NCBI GenBank assembly: GCA_039924845.1
Contig: JBDTAC010000100.1
Span: 1 to 40,415 of the forward strand
DNA: 40,415 bases
Origin: Bacteroidia bacterium
GTDB lineage: Bacteria > Bacteroidota > Bacteroidia > DATLTG01
Direction: 5' to 3'
The position numbers and the translations under genes were made by a program. A model generated the notes under the pieces. The model had not been told where the DNA came from and did not search any database. It saw only the letters and a program-made list of their open reading frames with translations. Below, piece by piece: positions 5,754 to 40,415 of this stretch; position 1 is the first letter of the stretch; every line of letters starts with the position of its first letter.

Positions 5754-6950
5754 TTATTTTTTTAAAACACCTAATTCTTTTCCCACTTTCGTGAAGGCTG
5801 CAATGGCTTTATCTAAATGTTGTTTTTCATGCGCAGCAGAAAGTTGCACACGAATCCGTGCCAAATCTTTCGGCACCACGGGATAAAAAAATCCGATTAC
5901 ATAAATACCTTCTTTCAATAATTTACTTGCCATTTCTTGTGCGATTTTCGCATCGTATAACATTACTGGTACAATAGGATGTATTCCAGAGCGAATATCA
6001 AAACCGGCTTTGCTCATTCCTTCGCGGAAATACAACGCATTTTCCATCACCTTATCGCGTAAAGTAGTCGTTTCACTCAGTAAATCCATTACCGCAATCG
6101 TAGCACCAACAATAGATGGCGCTAAAGAATTGGAAAATAAATACGGACGAGAACGTTGGCGCAACATATCAATAATTTCTTTTCTGCCCGAAGTAAATCC
6201 GCCCATTGCGCCGCCCAGCGCCTTGCCCAGTGTGCTGGTAATAATATCAATTTTGCCGATTACGTTGTTGTGTTCGTGTGTGCCGCGTCCCGTTTTTCCT
6301 ACAAATCCAGTAGCATGGCTGTCGTCCACCATTACCAACGCATCGTATTTTTCAGCCAGTTTACAAATCTCATCTAATTTCGCGATGTAACCGTCCATCG
6401 AAAAAACGCCATCGGTAACAATTATTTTGAAACGATTGGCTTGCGCCGCTTTTAGTTGTTCTTCCAAATCCGCCATGTCGCTATTTTTATAACGATAACG
6501 TTTTGCTTTACACAAACGCACGCCATCAATAATGGAAGCATGATTTAATTCGTCCGAAATAATGGCATCCTCTTCTCCGAAAAGTGGTTCGAAAACACCG
6601 CCGTTTGCATCAAAAGCTGCAGCATACAAAATGGTATCTTCTGTTCCGAGAAACGTGGAAATTTTTTTCTCTAATTCTTTGTGAATGTCTTGCGTTCCGC
6701 AGATAAATCGTACCGATGACATTCCGTAGCCGTGCGAGTCTAACGCTTTTTTAGCAGCATTTACAACCGTTGGGTGAGAAGACAATCCGAGATAGTTATT
6801 GGCGCAAAAATTCAAAACTTCTTCGCCTGTATTTACTTTTATGACTGCGTTTTGTGGCGTAACAATAATGCGTTCGCGCTTGAAAAGACCAGCAGCATCA
6901 ATGTTTTTTAATTCATTGGAAAGCTGTTCTTGAAATTTTTTCGTGTACAT
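5754..6950 (-). CDS. kbl: Glycine C-acetyltransferase (2-amino-3-ketobutyrate CoA ligase)
   Basis: Kbl is a PLP enzyme of the alpha-oxoamine synthase family that converts 2-amino-3-ketobutyrate and CoA to glycine and acetyl-CoA in threonine breakdown. The 398-residue length equals that of E. coli Kbl. The PLP Schiff-base lysine is Lys243 in [12 protein letters not shown], and the [13 protein letters not shown] segment holds the Asp/His that contact PLP. The NYLGLSSHP motif near residue 50 is typical. Threonine dehydrogenase (tdh), the usual partner, is not in the window. A -7 box lies 24 bases upstream of the ATG. Other family members (AONS, serine palmitoyltransferase) are less likely given the close fit to Kbl. 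Confidence 0.93.
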
Positions 6951-7018: not shown

Positions 7019-7050
7019 AAAAAACGCCTTCAAAAAAATAATTTTTCGAA
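7019..7050 (+). repeat. Left 32-bp direct repeat flanking the restriction-modification system
   Basis: AAAAAACGCCTTC followed by the AT-rich core and TCGAA makes a 32-base block identical to 9120-9151. The block contains a near-palindrome and sits between two divergent promoters (kbl and the methyltransferase), so it cannot be a simple gene-end terminator here. The match ends abruptly at both sides (7018 G versus 9119 T; 7051 G versus 9152 A). Confidence 0.9.
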
Positions 7051-7065
7051 GTGTATTATTTCTTG

Positions 7066-7073
7066 TAAATTTG
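7066..7073 (+). promoter_or_regulatory. Probable -7 box for the cytosine methyltransferase
   Basis: TAAATTTG fits TAnnTTTG and lies 31 bases before the preferred ATG at 7105. The expected -33 position falls in the right arm of the flanking repeat, which gives no clear TTTG in this direction. Confidence 0.5.
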
Positions 7074-7104
7074 TAACCATTGTATAAGGTTAATCAATTT
7101 GGTT

Positions 7105-8340
7105 ATGAGTGAATATTTAACATTGTCGGAAGCCTCGGAACTAATTGGGAAGAGCAAGGAAACGTTGAGAAGATGGGATCGAGAAGGGAAACTTTGTGCT
7201 GTTCGGGAACCAATGAGTAATTATCGTGTTTACCGAAAAACGGAAGTCCAAACGCTCTTTTCGGATTTTTTAGTTGATAAAATAGATACTGTTTCCAATT
7301 ACGTTGAGGCAGAGAATGATTATACCGTTTTGGAATTATTTGCAGGTGCGGGAGGTTTAGCCGCTGGCATGGAAAAAGCAGGATTAAAATGTGTTGGATT
7401 GAATGAAATAGATAAATGGGCTTGTCAGACATTGCGCAAAAATCGTCCAGCTTGGAACGTTTTAGAAGGCGATATTAAATCCTATAAATTTTCAAAATAT
7501 CATAACAAAGTAGATGTTGTTACTGGAGGTTTTCCTTGCCAAGCGTTTAGTTATGCAGGTAAAAAATTAGGACTTGCTGATGCGCGAGGAACGCTTTTTT
7601 ATGAATTTGCACGAGTTGTAAAAGAGGTAAATCCTCTCATCTGTATTGGAGAAAATGTTCGTGGTTTGTTGAGCCACGAAAATGGGAAAACGCTGCAAGG
7701 TATGATTTCAATATTAGATGAAATTGGCTACAATGTTGTACCTGTGCAGGTTTTAAAAGCTATTCACTACAAAGTCCCACAAAAGAGAGAGCGAATAATT
7801 TTAGTTGGAATTAGAAAAGATATTGATTTAACGTATGAATATCCAAAACCATATAAGAAAATATACAATTTAAAAGATGCTTTAAAAAAAGGAGAATTAT
7901 TCGCTTGTAATGTTCCAAAATCAAATGGTTCGAAATATCCAAAAAGTAAAATTGACGTGTTGGATTTAGTTCCTCCAAAAGGCTACTGGAGAGATTTACC
8001 TTTAGCAATCCAAAAAAAATTTATGGGTGGAAGTTTTCACTTGGGTGGCGGAAAAACAGGTATTGCAAGAAGAATAGGTTGGGACGAACCTTGTCTGACC
8101 CTTACGTGCAGCCCAGCACAAAAACAAACAGAAAGGTGTCATCCCGATGAAACTCGTCCGTTTACAGTTCGCGAATATGCCCGTATTCAAACTTTTCCAG
8201 ATGATTGGAAATTTGAAGGATCTACAGCCCAACAATACAAGCAAATTGGGAATGCCGTTCCAGTAAATTTAGGCAGAGAAGTTGGCTATTCTATCGTTAA
8301 ATTTTTGAATCAATATTACAGTTTATCGAAACCTAAATAA
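7105..8340 (+). CDS. DNA (cytosine-5) methyltransferase with N-terminal MerR-like HTH, predicted GGNCC specificity
   Basis: This is the modification half of a type II system. About 50 N-terminal residues form a MerR/excisionase-like helix-turn-helix (LTLSEASELIGKSKETLRRW). The C5-methyltransferase motifs follow in order: ELFAGAGGLAAG (motif I, SAM binding), GGFPCQAFS with the catalytic cysteine (IV), GENVRGLL (VI), QKRERIILVG (VIII), and REYARIQTFPDDW with QIGNAVPV (IX-X). The open frame extends to a TTG at 7099, but the ATG at 7105, giving 411 residues, is the better start. Sequence specificity is inferred from the Eco47II-type partner nuclease. The HTH suggests that the protein may also bind its own promoter, as M.SsoII does. 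The 3' end overlaps the convergent nuclease gene by 25 bases. Confidence 0.93.
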   Translation: MSEYLTLSEASELIGKSKETLRRWDREGKLCAVREPMSNYRVYRKTEVQTLFSDFLVDKIDTVSNYVEAENDYTVLELFAGAGGLAAGMEKAGLKCVGLNEIDKWACQTLRKNRPAWNVLEGDIKSYKFSKYHNKVDVVTGGFPCQAFSYAGKKLGLADARGTLFYEFARVVKEVNPLICIGENVRGLLSHENGKTLQGMISILDEIGYNVVPVQVLKAIHYKVPQKRERIILVGIRKDIDLTYEYPKPYKKIYNLKDALKKGELFACNVPKSNGSKYPKSKIDVLDLVPPKGYWRDLPLAIQKKFMGGSFHLGGGKTGIARRIGWDEPCLTLTCSPAQKQTERCHPDETRPFTVREYARIQTFPDDWKFEGSTAQQYKQIGNAVPVNLGREVGYSIVKFLNQYYSLSKPK

Positions 8341-9080
8341 TAGCTGTAATTTTCAAAAGTAATTTGGTCTAAGATACTTCGTTTCGTATTTTGTGTTTCA
8401 GATTTTATTTCTTCTAAAGCAGAATTTTCTTTGAGTTTTTCACTTTGTCCAATCGAATTTAGATATTCCTTTATGGCCATTGGTAAAACTTTGTATAATT
8501 GAAAAAGAGCATCGTCTTGTCTCGAAAGCAAAGCGTAGAATCGATCTCCTGAAATTTTAAAAACTCTACTGTGGCTATATTCTTTCCCATTTATTTCACC
8601 TTTCCACAATTCACAAAAACTGGTTTTTGCTAAAATTTGAACCCAATAACAATTTGCTTTTTTGTACGTATCGGCATAATGCGCTAATTTTTGAAACAAA
8701 GCTTCCGCCGAACTGCTATTCATTGTGTTGTGTTTATTTTTTATATCAGCAAACAAGGTATCGTCTTTTGCTTTGATGTCAAATCCACTCAACTTACCAA
8801 CTGAAAAGTTTTTTATTCCGCCTAAAATTTCTTCGTGAAATGTGCCAATGGAATTATTAATGGATTTATCTATTTGCCTCAAAATCTCTGCTTGAATAAG
8901 GTTTTCCTCATTAATATTATTGAATTTTGCATCAAAAACCAATTTAACAGTATCCACTTTGTTACTGTAAAAGCTCTTTTTCGAAACATTGTTTTTTGCT
9001 TTTAAATAGGCCTTGTGAAGCTTCGATATGCAATCAAGTAAATGCTTGTCTGAAATGAAGCCTACGTATTTATTTTTCAT
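8316..9080 (-). CDS. Eco47II/Sau96I-family type II restriction endonuclease (predicted GGNCC)
   Basis: The 254-residue protein resembles the Eco47II restriction endonuclease family, whose characterised members cut GGNCC. The most recognisable stretch is ADIKNKHNTMNSSSAE near residues 131-146. Here Asp and Lys of DIK, with the preceding GFDI aspartate, probably form the PD-(D/E)xK-type metal site. RQIDKSINNSIGTFHEEILGGI upstream is also family-typical. It faces the methyltransferase tail to tail with a 25-base overlap, so the two genes are transcribed from separate promoters. GGNCC sites occur in the surrounding host genes (for example 2692-2696 and 2743-2747), so the genome needs the methylase. 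Specificity is inferred from family membership. Confidence 0.88.
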   Translation of the reverse strand: MKNKYVGFISDKHLLDCISKLHKAYLKAKNNVSKKSFYSNKVDTVKLVFDAKFNNINEENLIQAEILRQIDKSINNSIGTFHEEILGGIKNFSVGKLSGFDIKAKDDTLFADIKNKHNTMNSSSAEALFQKLAHYADTYKKANCYWVQILAKTSFCELWKGEINGKEYSHSRVFKISGDRFYALLSRQDDALFQLYKVLPMAIKEYLNSIGQSEKLKENSALEEIKSETQNTKRSILDQITFENYSYYLGFDKL

Positions 9081-9105
9081 ACAATTTTATATTATGATAA
9101 CTGCT

Positions 9106-9135
9106 CAAAATTACTCAATAAAAAACGCCTTCAAA
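9106..9135 (-). promoter_or_regulatory. Probable promoter of the restriction endonuclease, -33 inside the flanking repeat
   Basis: On the minus strand, TAATTTTG (9106-9113) fits TAnnTTTG. A TTTG at 9132-9135 lies 18 bases upstream, close to the usual Bacteroidota spacing. The TTTG belongs to the right-hand 32-bp direct repeat, so the repeat may supply part of the promoter. Confidence 0.5.
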
Positions 9136-9151
9136 AAAATAATTTTTCGAA
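9120..9151 (+). repeat. Right 32-bp direct repeat flanking the restriction-modification system
   Basis: This copy is identical to 7019-7050 in the same orientation. It lies between the divergent nuclease gene and rnr. Removing one copy plus the 2.1 kb between the copies would leave kbl and rnr as divergent neighbours separated by one repeat. Confidence 0.9.
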
Positions 9152-9216: not shown

Positions 9217-11370
9217 ATGTCGAAGAAAAAATCAAAAAAAGGAAAACATTTTTTAGTAGATGAGGTGATTGGAATCCTCAGTAAAAATAGTGGAAAGCCG
9301 CTCAATTACAAACAAGTGGCAGCACAAATGAATATCGAAGATCATTCCCAAAAATTATTAATCAATAATATTCTGGAAGAATTAAACGAGCGCGGAACAA
9401 TTACAGAACCGGAGCGCGGAAAATTTTTAATGAAAACATCCGAACGTTTTATAATCGGAAAAGTGGACATGACTTCCGGCGGCGATGCGTATATCGTTTC
9501 CGACGAAATGGAGGACGATGTTTTTGTGTCAGAGAAAAAGACGGCGCGCGCTTTTCATGGCGATACCGTGAAAGTGCGTGTACGTGCGGCACGTGGCAGT
9601 AGAAAACCAGATGGAGAAATTGTAGAAATTATTTCGCGCGGAAAAACAGAATTTGTTGGAGTCGTAAAAATTTCTCCACGCTTTGCTTTTTTTGTGGCGG
9701 ATAATGCGCGTATGCAAACGGATATTTTTATTCCCTTGGAAAATTTGCTGGGCGCGAAAGATGGACAAAAGGCGATTGCGAAAATTTTAGAATGGCCCGA
9801 AAAAGAACGCAACCCAATTGGCGAAATCACAGAAGTGCTGGGCGATCCGGGAAATAACGAAACAGAAATGCACGCGATACTTGCCGAATTTGGCTTGCCG
9901 TATGCATTCCCGAAAGACGTAGAAAAAATAGCAGATCAAATTCCGACGATTATTACTGCGGAGGAAATTGCGTCGCGAAAAGATTTTAGAAGAATAACCA
10001 CATTTACGATTGATCCATTAGATGCGAAAGACTTTGACGACGCACTTTCCATTCGAAAAATGGAAAACGGAAATTGGGAAATCGGCGTGCACATTGCAGA
10101 CGTTTCTCATTATTTAAAAACGGATTCTATTTTAGACAAAGAAGCGGCAAGTCGCGCTACATCTGTGTATTTGGTGGATCGTGTGGTGCCGATGTTGCCC
10201 GAAATTCTTTCCAACAATGTGTGTTCGCTTCGTCCAAAAGAAGAAAAATTATGTTTTTCTGCGGTGTTTGAATTAGACGAAAACGCCAATGTTTTAGCGG
10301 AATGGTTTGGACGAACAGTGATATTTTCCGACCGTCGTTTTACGTACGAAGAAGTGCAAATTATTTTAGAAACAGAACAAGGCGATTTTTACGATGAACT
10401 GAAAACATTGGATGGATTGGCAAAAAAATTACGCGTCGAACGTTTCAAAAAAGGCTCTATCGCTTTTGATCGTCAAGAAGTAAAATTTAATTTGGACGAA
10501 AAAGGGAATCCAATCGGTGTATTTTTTAAAGAACAAAAAGATGCGCATAAATTAATTGAAGACTTTATGTTGCTTGCCAATCGTAAGGTTGCGGAGTATG
10601 TCGGAAAAAGAAAAACGAATAAGCAAAAAACATTTGTGTACCGAATTCACGATTCGCCAGATCCTGAAAAATTGAAAAACTTTTCTGCTTTTGTTTCGCG
10701 TTTCGGTTATAAAATAGATACAAAATCGGACAAAGATATTGCGGTTTCGATGAATAAATTATTGCACGATTCGAAATCAAAACCCGAAGAAAATATCATC
10801 GAACAATTAGCGATTCGTACCATGTCGAAAGCAATTTATACCACGCAAAACATCGGTCATTACGGATTGGCATTTGATTATTACACGCATTTTACTTCGC
10901 CCATTCGCCGTTATCCGGATGTGTTGGTGCACCGTTTATTGCAACGTTATTTGGATGAAGCCGCTGGAAAAAATGTTTTGTCCATCAACGATAAACAATT
11001 GGAAGACGAATGCAAACACTCGTCGGAGATGGAAAAATTAGCTGCCGAAGCCGAACGCGCTTCTGTCAAATACAAACAAGTAGAATTTTTAGAAGATAAA
11101 ATCGGACAAAAATTTGACGGAATTGTATCGGGCGTTACCGAGTGGGGAATGTTTGTGGAAATCATTGAAAACAAATGCGAAGGCATGATTCGTTTGCGCG
11201 ATTTAGCAGATGATTTTTATTTCTTCGATCAAGAAAATTATTGCATCAAAGGCAGACGTAGCGGAAAAACTTTTTCCTTGGGAGATAAATTGAGAATCGT
11301 TGTAAAACGTGCTGATTTAGTGAGAAAGCAATTGGATTTCGGCTTGGCTGGAAAATCATTTGACTACTAA
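9217..11370 (+). CDS. rnr: Ribonuclease R (RNB-family 3'-5' exoribonuclease)
   Basis: RNase R is a processive 3'-5' exoribonuclease that degrades structured RNA and helps in rRNA and tmRNA quality control. The 717-residue protein shows an N-terminal winged-helix RNA-binding region (residues 1-70), cold-shock domains, and the RNB catalytic domain with TIDPLDAKDFDDALSI near residue 265, whose aspartates bind magnesium. HYGLAFDYYTHFTSPIRRYPDVLVHRLL, the family signature, lies near residue 550. A C-terminal S1 domain (GQKFDGIVSGVTEWGMFVEI) follows. The lysine-rich tail typical of E. coli RNase R is absent, as is common in this phylum. It is transcribed away from the restriction system and ends at an element shared with the convergent lipoprotein gene. 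Confidence 0.96.
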   Translation: MSKKKSKKGKHFLVDEVIGILSKNSGKPLNYKQVAAQMNIEDHSQKLLINNILEELNERGTITEPERGKFLMKTSERFIIGKVDMTSGGDAYIVSDEMEDDVFVSEKKTARAFHGDTVKVRVRAARGSRKPDGEIVEIISRGKTEFVGVVKISPRFAFFVADNARMQTDIFIPLENLLGAKDGQKAIAKILEWPEKERNPIGEITEVLGDPGNNETEMHAILAEFGLPYAFPKDVEKIADQIPTIITAEEIASRKDFRRITTFTIDPLDAKDFDDALSIRKMENGNWEIGVHIADVSHYLKTDSILDKEAASRATSVYLVDRVVPMLPEILSNNVCSLRPKEEKLCFSAVFELDENANVLAEWFGRTVIFSDRRFTYEEVQIILETEQGDFYDELKTLDGLAKKLRVERFKKGSIAFDRQEVKFNLDEKGNPIGVFFKEQKDAHKLIEDFMLLANRKVAEYVGKRKTNKQKTFVYRIHDSPDPEKLKNFSAFVSRFGYKIDTKSDKDIAVSMNKLLHDSKSKPEENIIEQLAIRTMSKAIYTTQNIGHYGLAFDYYTHFTSPIRRYPDVLVHRLLQRYLDEAAGKNVLSINDKQLEDECKHSSEMEKLAAEAERASVKYKQVEFLEDKIGQKFDGIVSGVTEWGMFVEIIENKCEGMIRLRDLADDFYFFDQENYCIKGRRSGKTFSLGDKLRIVVKRADLVRKQLDFGLAGKSFDY

Positions 11371-13003: not shown

Positions 13004-13053
13004 AAATTATTTTTTTGAACGCTCGAAAAATTATTTTTTCAAAGCCTTTTTTT
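13004..13053 (-). repeat. Paired near-palindromes; 13019-13053 is the left 35-bp direct repeat
   Basis: Two copies of the AT-rich element lie back to back just after the LuxE-like stop codon. The second, with ACGCTCG at its left and CAAAGCC plus a T-run at its right, is identical over 35 bases to 13609-13643. Together the two copies bracket a single gene. The T-run after GCC also resembles a terminator tail for the LuxE-like transcript. Confidence 0.85.
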
Positions 13054-13083: not shown

Positions 13084-13575
13084 CTACTCTTTCTGAACAC
13101 TAACTAAATTTTCGTATAATTCTTTAATTTTATTTTTATTCCAATCAGTTTCAAAAACAGTATTACTATACTGCGTTATAGATAAGTTATCTTGCTTAAA
13201 TGTTAATTGAAATTTTTGAAATAAACTTACAGATGGAACGCGTTCCAGTTCTATGTTTACTTGCCTTTTATTAAAAATGATTTTCTTTTCCTTGTTATAT
13301 GACAGATAGTTAATTGTAATAAATTCCGCGTCATAATATATTTGATATACGAATATTTTATTCCACCTTATAGTGATTCTAATCGCATATAAATATATTA
13401 GAAACACAGTTCCAAACGCAATACCATCCGAAGAAAAAGAACTTAGCCCTTCACCATCAAAATACAATAGAAATATATATGCAAATAAGTACAATATTGT
13501 GTTACTCAATAAGATTTTCGAATATCTTTTCCACATTGATTGTTTCTCAAATTCAAGTAAAGTTATTTTTCCCAT
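13084..13575 (-). CDS. Membrane protein of unknown function, two TM helices plus soluble C-terminal domain
   Basis: This 163-residue protein is not recognised. It starts MGKITLLEFEKQSMWKRY and has two hydrophobic helices, about residues 21-40 and 51-69. A soluble segment of about 90 residues follows, rich in short beta-type stretches (FVYQIYYDAEFITINYL, KKIIFNKRQVNIELERV). This layout resembles YcxB/PH-like membrane proteins, but the match is only by architecture. It is the sole gene between two perfect 35-base direct repeats. Its neighbours, the LuxE-like gene and the methyltransferase, would be convergent without it. That setting and its lack of a recognisable family suggest a mobile or accessory gene. 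No transposase or integrase is associated. Confidence 0.65.
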   Translation of the reverse strand: MGKITLLEFEKQSMWKRYSKILLSNTILYLFAYIFLLYFDGEGLSSFSSDGIAFGTVFLIYLYAIRITIRWNKIFVYQIYYDAEFITINYLSYNKEKKIIFNKRQVNIELERVPSVSLFQKFQLTFKQDNLSITQYSNTVFETDWNKNKIKELYENLVSVQKE

Positions 13576-13608: not shown

Positions 13609-13643
13609 ACGCTCGAAAAATTATTTTTTCAAAGCCTTTTTTT
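13609..13643 (-). repeat. Right 35-bp direct repeat flanking the membrane-protein locus
   Basis: This copy is identical to 13019-13053, starting at ACGCTCG and ending in the T-run after GCC. The flanking bases differ on both sides (13018 A versus 13608 C; 13054 A versus 13644 T). Confidence 0.88.
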
Positions 13644-40228: not shown

Positions 40229-40269
40229 CGCGATTCCTTTTTATTTTAAGAAGCTAAAATTTACCTAAA

Positions 40270-40415
40270 CGGTAGATACGTTTAGCTTATCGCATGACAC
40301 GTTTACATGAACGTGAGGCAAGTTCAGCTGTGCGTGAGGCAAGTTCAGCTGTGCGTGAGGTAAGTTCAGATAAACGTATGACATGTTCAGCTGTGCGTGA
40401 GGCAAGTTCAGCTGT
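40270..40415 (+). repeat. Degenerate 21-bp tandem repeat array, cut by the window end
   Basis: Seven head-to-tail units of 21 bases begin at 40270, 40291, 40312, 40333, 40354, 40375 and 40396, the last cut at 20 bases. Units 3, 4 and 7 are identical over their visible length (CGTGAGGCAAGTTCAGCTGT). The left units diverge progressively, as expected for an ageing array edge. In one plus-strand frame an ATG at 40294 opens a 7-residue repeat (REASSAV) with no stop to the edge. This is probably fortuitous, because 21 is a multiple of 3. Confidence 0.9.

Follow-up and report, generated by a model that had tools for sequence, protein, structure and literature searches.

The window (the whole stretch of DNA that was analysed, 40,415 nucleotides of a Bacteroidia genome) carries a two-gene restriction-modification (RM) unit between kbl and rnr, which are divergent around it (Table 1). 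The cytosine-5 DNA methyltransferase (MTase) gene and the restriction endonuclease (REase) gene are convergent, and the 3' ends of their ORFs overlap. The pair resembles Eco47II/Sau96I-type type II RM systems in that a PF09553 nuclease adjoins a C5 cytosine MTase; it differs from them in the convergent arrangement and in the N-terminal MerR-type HTH of the MTase. A GGNCC specificity is predicted from Eco47II family membership only, and no characterised close homologue or solved relative was found. The MTase gene is preceded by a TAAATTTG box, which we take to be its Bacteroidota-type -7 promoter box, and by an AACC-N9-GGTT inverted repeat. The inverted repeat is a candidate operator for the MTase-fused HTH, and autoregulation of the MTase gene is a candidate mode of control.

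The unit is enclosed by two direct repeats. As the preliminary description had claimed, the repeats are identical over exactly 32 bp, and sequence comparison showed that the match breaks off abruptly at both ends. ORF calls and a domain search likewise bore out that only the MTase and REase ORFs lie between them. No gene besides the RM pair was present there, and thus neither a transposase nor an integrase, so that the locus does not qualify as a composite transposon or an integron cassette. Coordinate arithmetic agreed with the proposal that collapsing the repeats would restore the host junction: what remains is a single copy of the element in a spacer of 165 bp between the divergent kbl and rnr genes.

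Table 1. Features of the RM locus and of the other brackets formed by copies of the element. Positions without a prefix are those of the window.
Feature	Position	Strand	Details
kbl (glycine C-acetyltransferase), left host neighbour	5754..6950	-	TIGR01822 E=6e-209
Left direct repeat, 32-bp	7019..7050	none	A/T arm, CGCC and 22-bp palindromic core of the genome-wide element
Mobile RM unit, extent of DNA conserved with four other genomes	7064..9082	none	Flanks unrelated
TAAATTTG box before MTase gene	7066..7073	+	Conserved in aligned relatives; at left end of the interval shared with other genomes
AACC-N9-GGTT inverted repeat before MTase gene	7075..7091	none	Intact in window copy and in 3 of 4 relatives (alignment)
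MTase gene: cytosine-5 DNA methyltransferase with N-terminal MerR-type HTH	7105..8340	+	ATG start; PF00145 E=1e-83, PF13411 E=2e-7, TIGR00675
REase gene: Eco47II-family restriction endonuclease	8316..9080	-	RE_Eco47II PF09553 E=8e-82; PADLOC REase_II
Right direct repeat, 32-bp	9120..9151	none	Sequence identical to left copy
rnr, right host neighbour	9217..11370	+	TIGR02063 E=1e-231
Second element direct repeat, 35-bp, left copy	13019..13053	none	Perfect match to right copy
163-aa orphan protein gene in second bracket	13084..13575	-	Sole ORF of at least 60 aa found there; 26% GC, lowest among sampled genes
Second element direct repeat, 35-bp, right copy	13609..13643	none	Perfect match to left copy
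ORF6N-domain gene bracket	C7 12681-13685		Element pair
proC and inserted hydrolase gene bracket	C28 41035-43929		32-bp element pair; second sample
Secreted adhesin gene bracket	C73 45476-47885		Element pair; second sample

The RM unit in other genomes

Relatives of the RM proteins were found in genomes of other families, with identities of 70-81% for the REase and 80-88% for the MTase. At the DNA level, identity to four other genomes was 71-79% and was confined to approximately positions 7064-9082, ending at the MTase promoter and at the REase start codon. The chromosomal neighbours differed in each of the four genomes. Judged by these comparisons, the RM genes form a compact cassette that moves horizontally and is ordinary for its type in other respects. 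The conserved DNA stops about 13 bp inward of the left repeat and about 38 bp inward of the right repeat; hence, the repeats do not abut the unit. In the four complete relatives, no flanking direct repeat above chance was detected (8-11 bp at best). The unit therefore does not regularly make such duplications, and terminal repeats of its own were ruled out.

Three further genomes (L170, L171, and L172) carried partial REase genes only; one of these contained an internal TAA, and one match ended at a contig end. Some of them are likely decaying RM systems. Carriage of the unit by a phage or plasmid was rejected, as phage records gave no match and plasmids gave distant matches only (≤34%). One relative of 78% lay at the end of an IMG/VR contig. 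When rnr and the REase were searched in the genus, family, and order, this genome alone matched, and none of 80 rnr loci in other genomes had kbl in the flanks examined. GGNCC was not avoided in the host (O/E 1.03), which is in line with a recent arrival of the RM unit. In a genome sample, GGCC and CTAG were strongly depleted, to 0.13 of expectation, and GATC stood at 0.55; the scarcity of GGCC points to an enzyme of this specificity that has long been present in the lineage.

A lineage-specific palindrome dispersed through the genome

The 32-mer comprises one arm and the 22-bp core of an element with the consensus TTCGAAAAATTATTTTTTCGAA; in the family profile, A/T runs lie about 4 bases outside each end. 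The repeat had been described as genome-wide, and this was the case: the element was found at 919 places with ≤2 mismatches in the 2.66-Mb, 101-contig genome, against 0 places in a reversed control. Such dispersal excludes the possibility, named beforehand as one that would count against the proposal, that the repeats occur only with this RM system. With ≤1 mismatch, 513 places were found here, and 11 of 246 other genomes of the class carried one place each. The palindrome is thus lineage-specific and essentially missing from the 246 other genomes.

In 1.45 Mb, 752 copies were found with ≤4 mismatches, of which 554 were intergenic and 180 (24%) fell within genes, the remainder lying at contig edges. 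The density was 0.5 copies per kb, i.e., one per 1-2 kb, and the median spacing in the first 0.44-Mb sample was about 1.2 kb. The window contained no exact third copy of the 32-mer, three further sites with ≤3 mismatches, and the 22-bp core at over a dozen places. Because the copies are so dense, a copy on either side of the RM pair is expected, and bracketing by the element itself carries no weight.

Several roles of the element were considered. The element is reminiscent, in its arms and its density, of DNA uptake sequences or of a nucleoid-protein site. A few copies form perfect bidirectional hairpins, and convergent spacers are richest in the element; the copies at C86 8557 and 10591 and at C89 36422 are extended into perfect hairpins with A-runs and T-runs that are usable as bidirectional terminators. 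Intrinsic termination was rejected as a general role, since covariation of the arms was weak overall and the two RM-flanking copies lie in divergent promoter spacers. A role as a promoter part was rejected because the spacing to TANNTTTG boxes was not fixed. The element meets the description of a REP in being an abundant, mostly intergenic palindrome. A RAYT-driven REP was nevertheless rejected: of the three Y1_Tnp matches in the genome, none had copies on both sides within 1.5 kb, unlike REP. Arrays of tandem repeats whose period is 21 bp or a multiple of this, and whose sequences differ, were also observed at window positions 40257-40415 and in C99, C90, C21, and C15, several of them at contig ends.

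Identity between neighbouring copies and the genes they enclose

As the RM-flanking repeat contains an element present at 919 places, only identity above the family background speaks for a duplication. The genome was sampled in stretches covering about 2.0 of 2.66 Mb (about three quarters), consisting of a first sample of 1.45 Mb and a separate sample of 0.55 Mb; the assembly is fragmented, and genes were called with a simple script. All pairs of copies were compared, pairs within 3 kb were classed as near, and the length of perfect identity was scored. In the 1.45-Mb sample, perfect identity of at least 32 bp was shared by 3 of 1,102 near direct pairs versus 5 of 278,942 distant pairs, and no near inverted pair reached even 26 bp. 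In the 0.55-Mb stretches, which were new to the analysis and served to test the prediction, 32 bp was reached by 2 of 410 near direct pairs and by no inverted pair. Combined, 5 near direct pairs were observed versus 0.03 expected, a Poisson comparison that treats pairs as independent and is indicative only. By a wider measure, at least 46 of 62 bases matching, there were 16 near direct pairs versus 0.27 expected and no inverted pair, part of this excess being due to short tandem arrays and duplicated genes. The 32-bp identity of the RM repeats, in direct orientation at 2.1 kb, lies far above the family background. Gene conversion between copies was rejected, as it should affect inverted pairs as well; the lack of an excess among these also argues against independent insertion of the element.

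A scan blind to the element was performed on the first sample, in which all perfect direct repeats of at least 28 bp at distances of 250-6000 bp were collected. Two pairs had no homology past the repeat, and both were element pairs, namely those around the RM genes and around the 163-aa orphan gene. Nearly all other repeats of at least 28 bp lay within wider duplications or at contig ends. At the ORF6N element pair, similarity ran on for about 50 bp at lower identity. In the second sample, one 31-bp non-element pair (L266) was likewise isolated.

The stretches shared in the five brackets measure 32-37 bp and always include the palindrome centre. At the proC and adhesin brackets, identity ends within the palindrome core, so that what is duplicated is a segment surrounding the palindrome and not the element as such. 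All five brackets contain one or more genes of accessory or atypical appearance, and four contain no others. In codon usage, the hydrolase ranked at the 0.5th percentile, the orphan at the 3rd, the ORF6N gene at the 5th, and the REase at the 17th; the MTase and the adhesin were typical. With four further brackets around accessory cargo, the element looks like a place of gene entry. To that extent, the preliminary view of the repeat as a landing and exchange site for defence genes was supported; gain or loss by recombination between copies, which it also proposed, is less likely than insertion with duplication.

At the proC bracket (C28; L269 11293-13893), a hydrolase gene follows proC. Past the hydrolase gene, the final ~170-190 bp of proC are repeated at about 93% identity, as counted from the alignment, and the element and the next gene follow. 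The hydrolase gene bears the clear signature of an insertion with a long target duplication. The 32-bp element pair encloses the core gene proC together with the insert; an element pair is therefore not always the target duplication of its cargo.

Origin of the flanking repeats

The best explanation that we can offer, at about even probability, is that a horizontally acquired RM cassette inserted at a resident element in the kbl-rnr spacer and duplicated about 32 bp. The divergent spacer would initially have held a single resident copy of the lineage-specific palindrome. A compact type II RM cassette would have arrived by horizontal transfer and inserted at this copy. The insertion itself would then have duplicated about 32 bp including the palindrome, so that the cassette came to lie between two copies. 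A long target duplication of this kind could arise by a break and fill-in, or by template switching at the A/T palindrome. Loss of the unit through a deletion from one 32-bp repeat to the other could restore the spacer precisely, which is plausible and unobserved. Horizontal insertion is argued for by the presence of the RM unit in unrelated genomes at unrelated sites, by the identity of the copies beyond chance, and by the four other direct-only loci; the separate long target duplication at the hydrolase gene also backs it.

Alternatively, the RM genes may have travelled with an element copy, as a circle or a transformed fragment, and recombined with a chromosomal copy, the repeats being crossover products that allow loss or exchange. 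The element is dense enough for this, at 0.5 copies per kb, and brackets occur at five loci. Moreover, 32-37 bp lies near the minimum length for homologous recombination; if only such pairs recombine, long identities would be selected. Against it, random copies share at least 32 bp in about 2 of 100,000 pairs, at which rate any one donor copy would meet such a partner in this genome with a probability of only about 3%. In addition, no circle, donor, or alternative cargo was seen, and a second copy of the REase gene was not found elsewhere in this genome. The excess of 32-37-bp identities among near direct pairs, with no counterpart among inverted ones, is better accounted for if the insertion duplicated a single copy than if two unrelated copies exchanged, and we consider recombination fairly unlikely. 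Local copying, in which replication template switching copies palindrome patches nearby in the same orientation regardless of any gene insertion, would leave the RM genes merely lying between copies. It would account for an identity excess that is direct-only and short-range, for the short-spaced tandem arrays of the element (C68 38803-39012; C24 4893/4955), and for a pair that surrounds the core gene proC. It does not predict an accessory or atypical gene in all five brackets, four of them with nothing else, although the adhesin and the MTase have typical codon usage; we judge it quite unlikely. A chance 32-bp match between two independent copies of the abundant element is very improbable: bracketing by the element is common and near matches to the 32-mer (97%) exist elsewhere in the genome, but five near direct pairs of this length far exceed expectation.

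Insertion of RM genes with a long target duplication is a known mode (Nobusato et al., 2000; Furuta et al., 2010, as cited in PMC3031569). As in those insertions, the RM unit is compact, lacks a mobility gene, and has direct repeats of some tens of bases on its two sides, here 32 bp without a mismatch and longer than the usual transposon duplications; a gene insertion with a longer duplication also occurs elsewhere in the same genome. In contrast to them, the repeats here are copies of a palindrome dispersed through the genome, and the pattern also occurs with cargo other than RM genes. IS elements have insertion hot spots in REP palindromes (Tobes and Pareja, 2006; PMC1525189). The present element is similarly abundant, mostly intergenic, genome-specific, and a recipient of inserted DNA; it differs in that the insert lacks a transposase, the palindrome is A/T-rich, and many copies lie within genes.

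Insertion with duplication at a resident palindrome bears on the movement of small RM systems and of other single genes that carry no mobility functions. With several such genes between near-identical copies of one palindrome, the events are countable, empty sites are predicted, and the target is testable. It would tie dispersed palindromes to the gain of defence genes. An unlikely further step is that the A/T palindrome is an active entry point: breaks or a nuclease acting at its centre would permit the insertion of single genes that lack mobility functions, including defence genes, each with a 32-37-bp duplication. If true, about a thousand sites would be open to the transposase-free gain and precise loss of genes.
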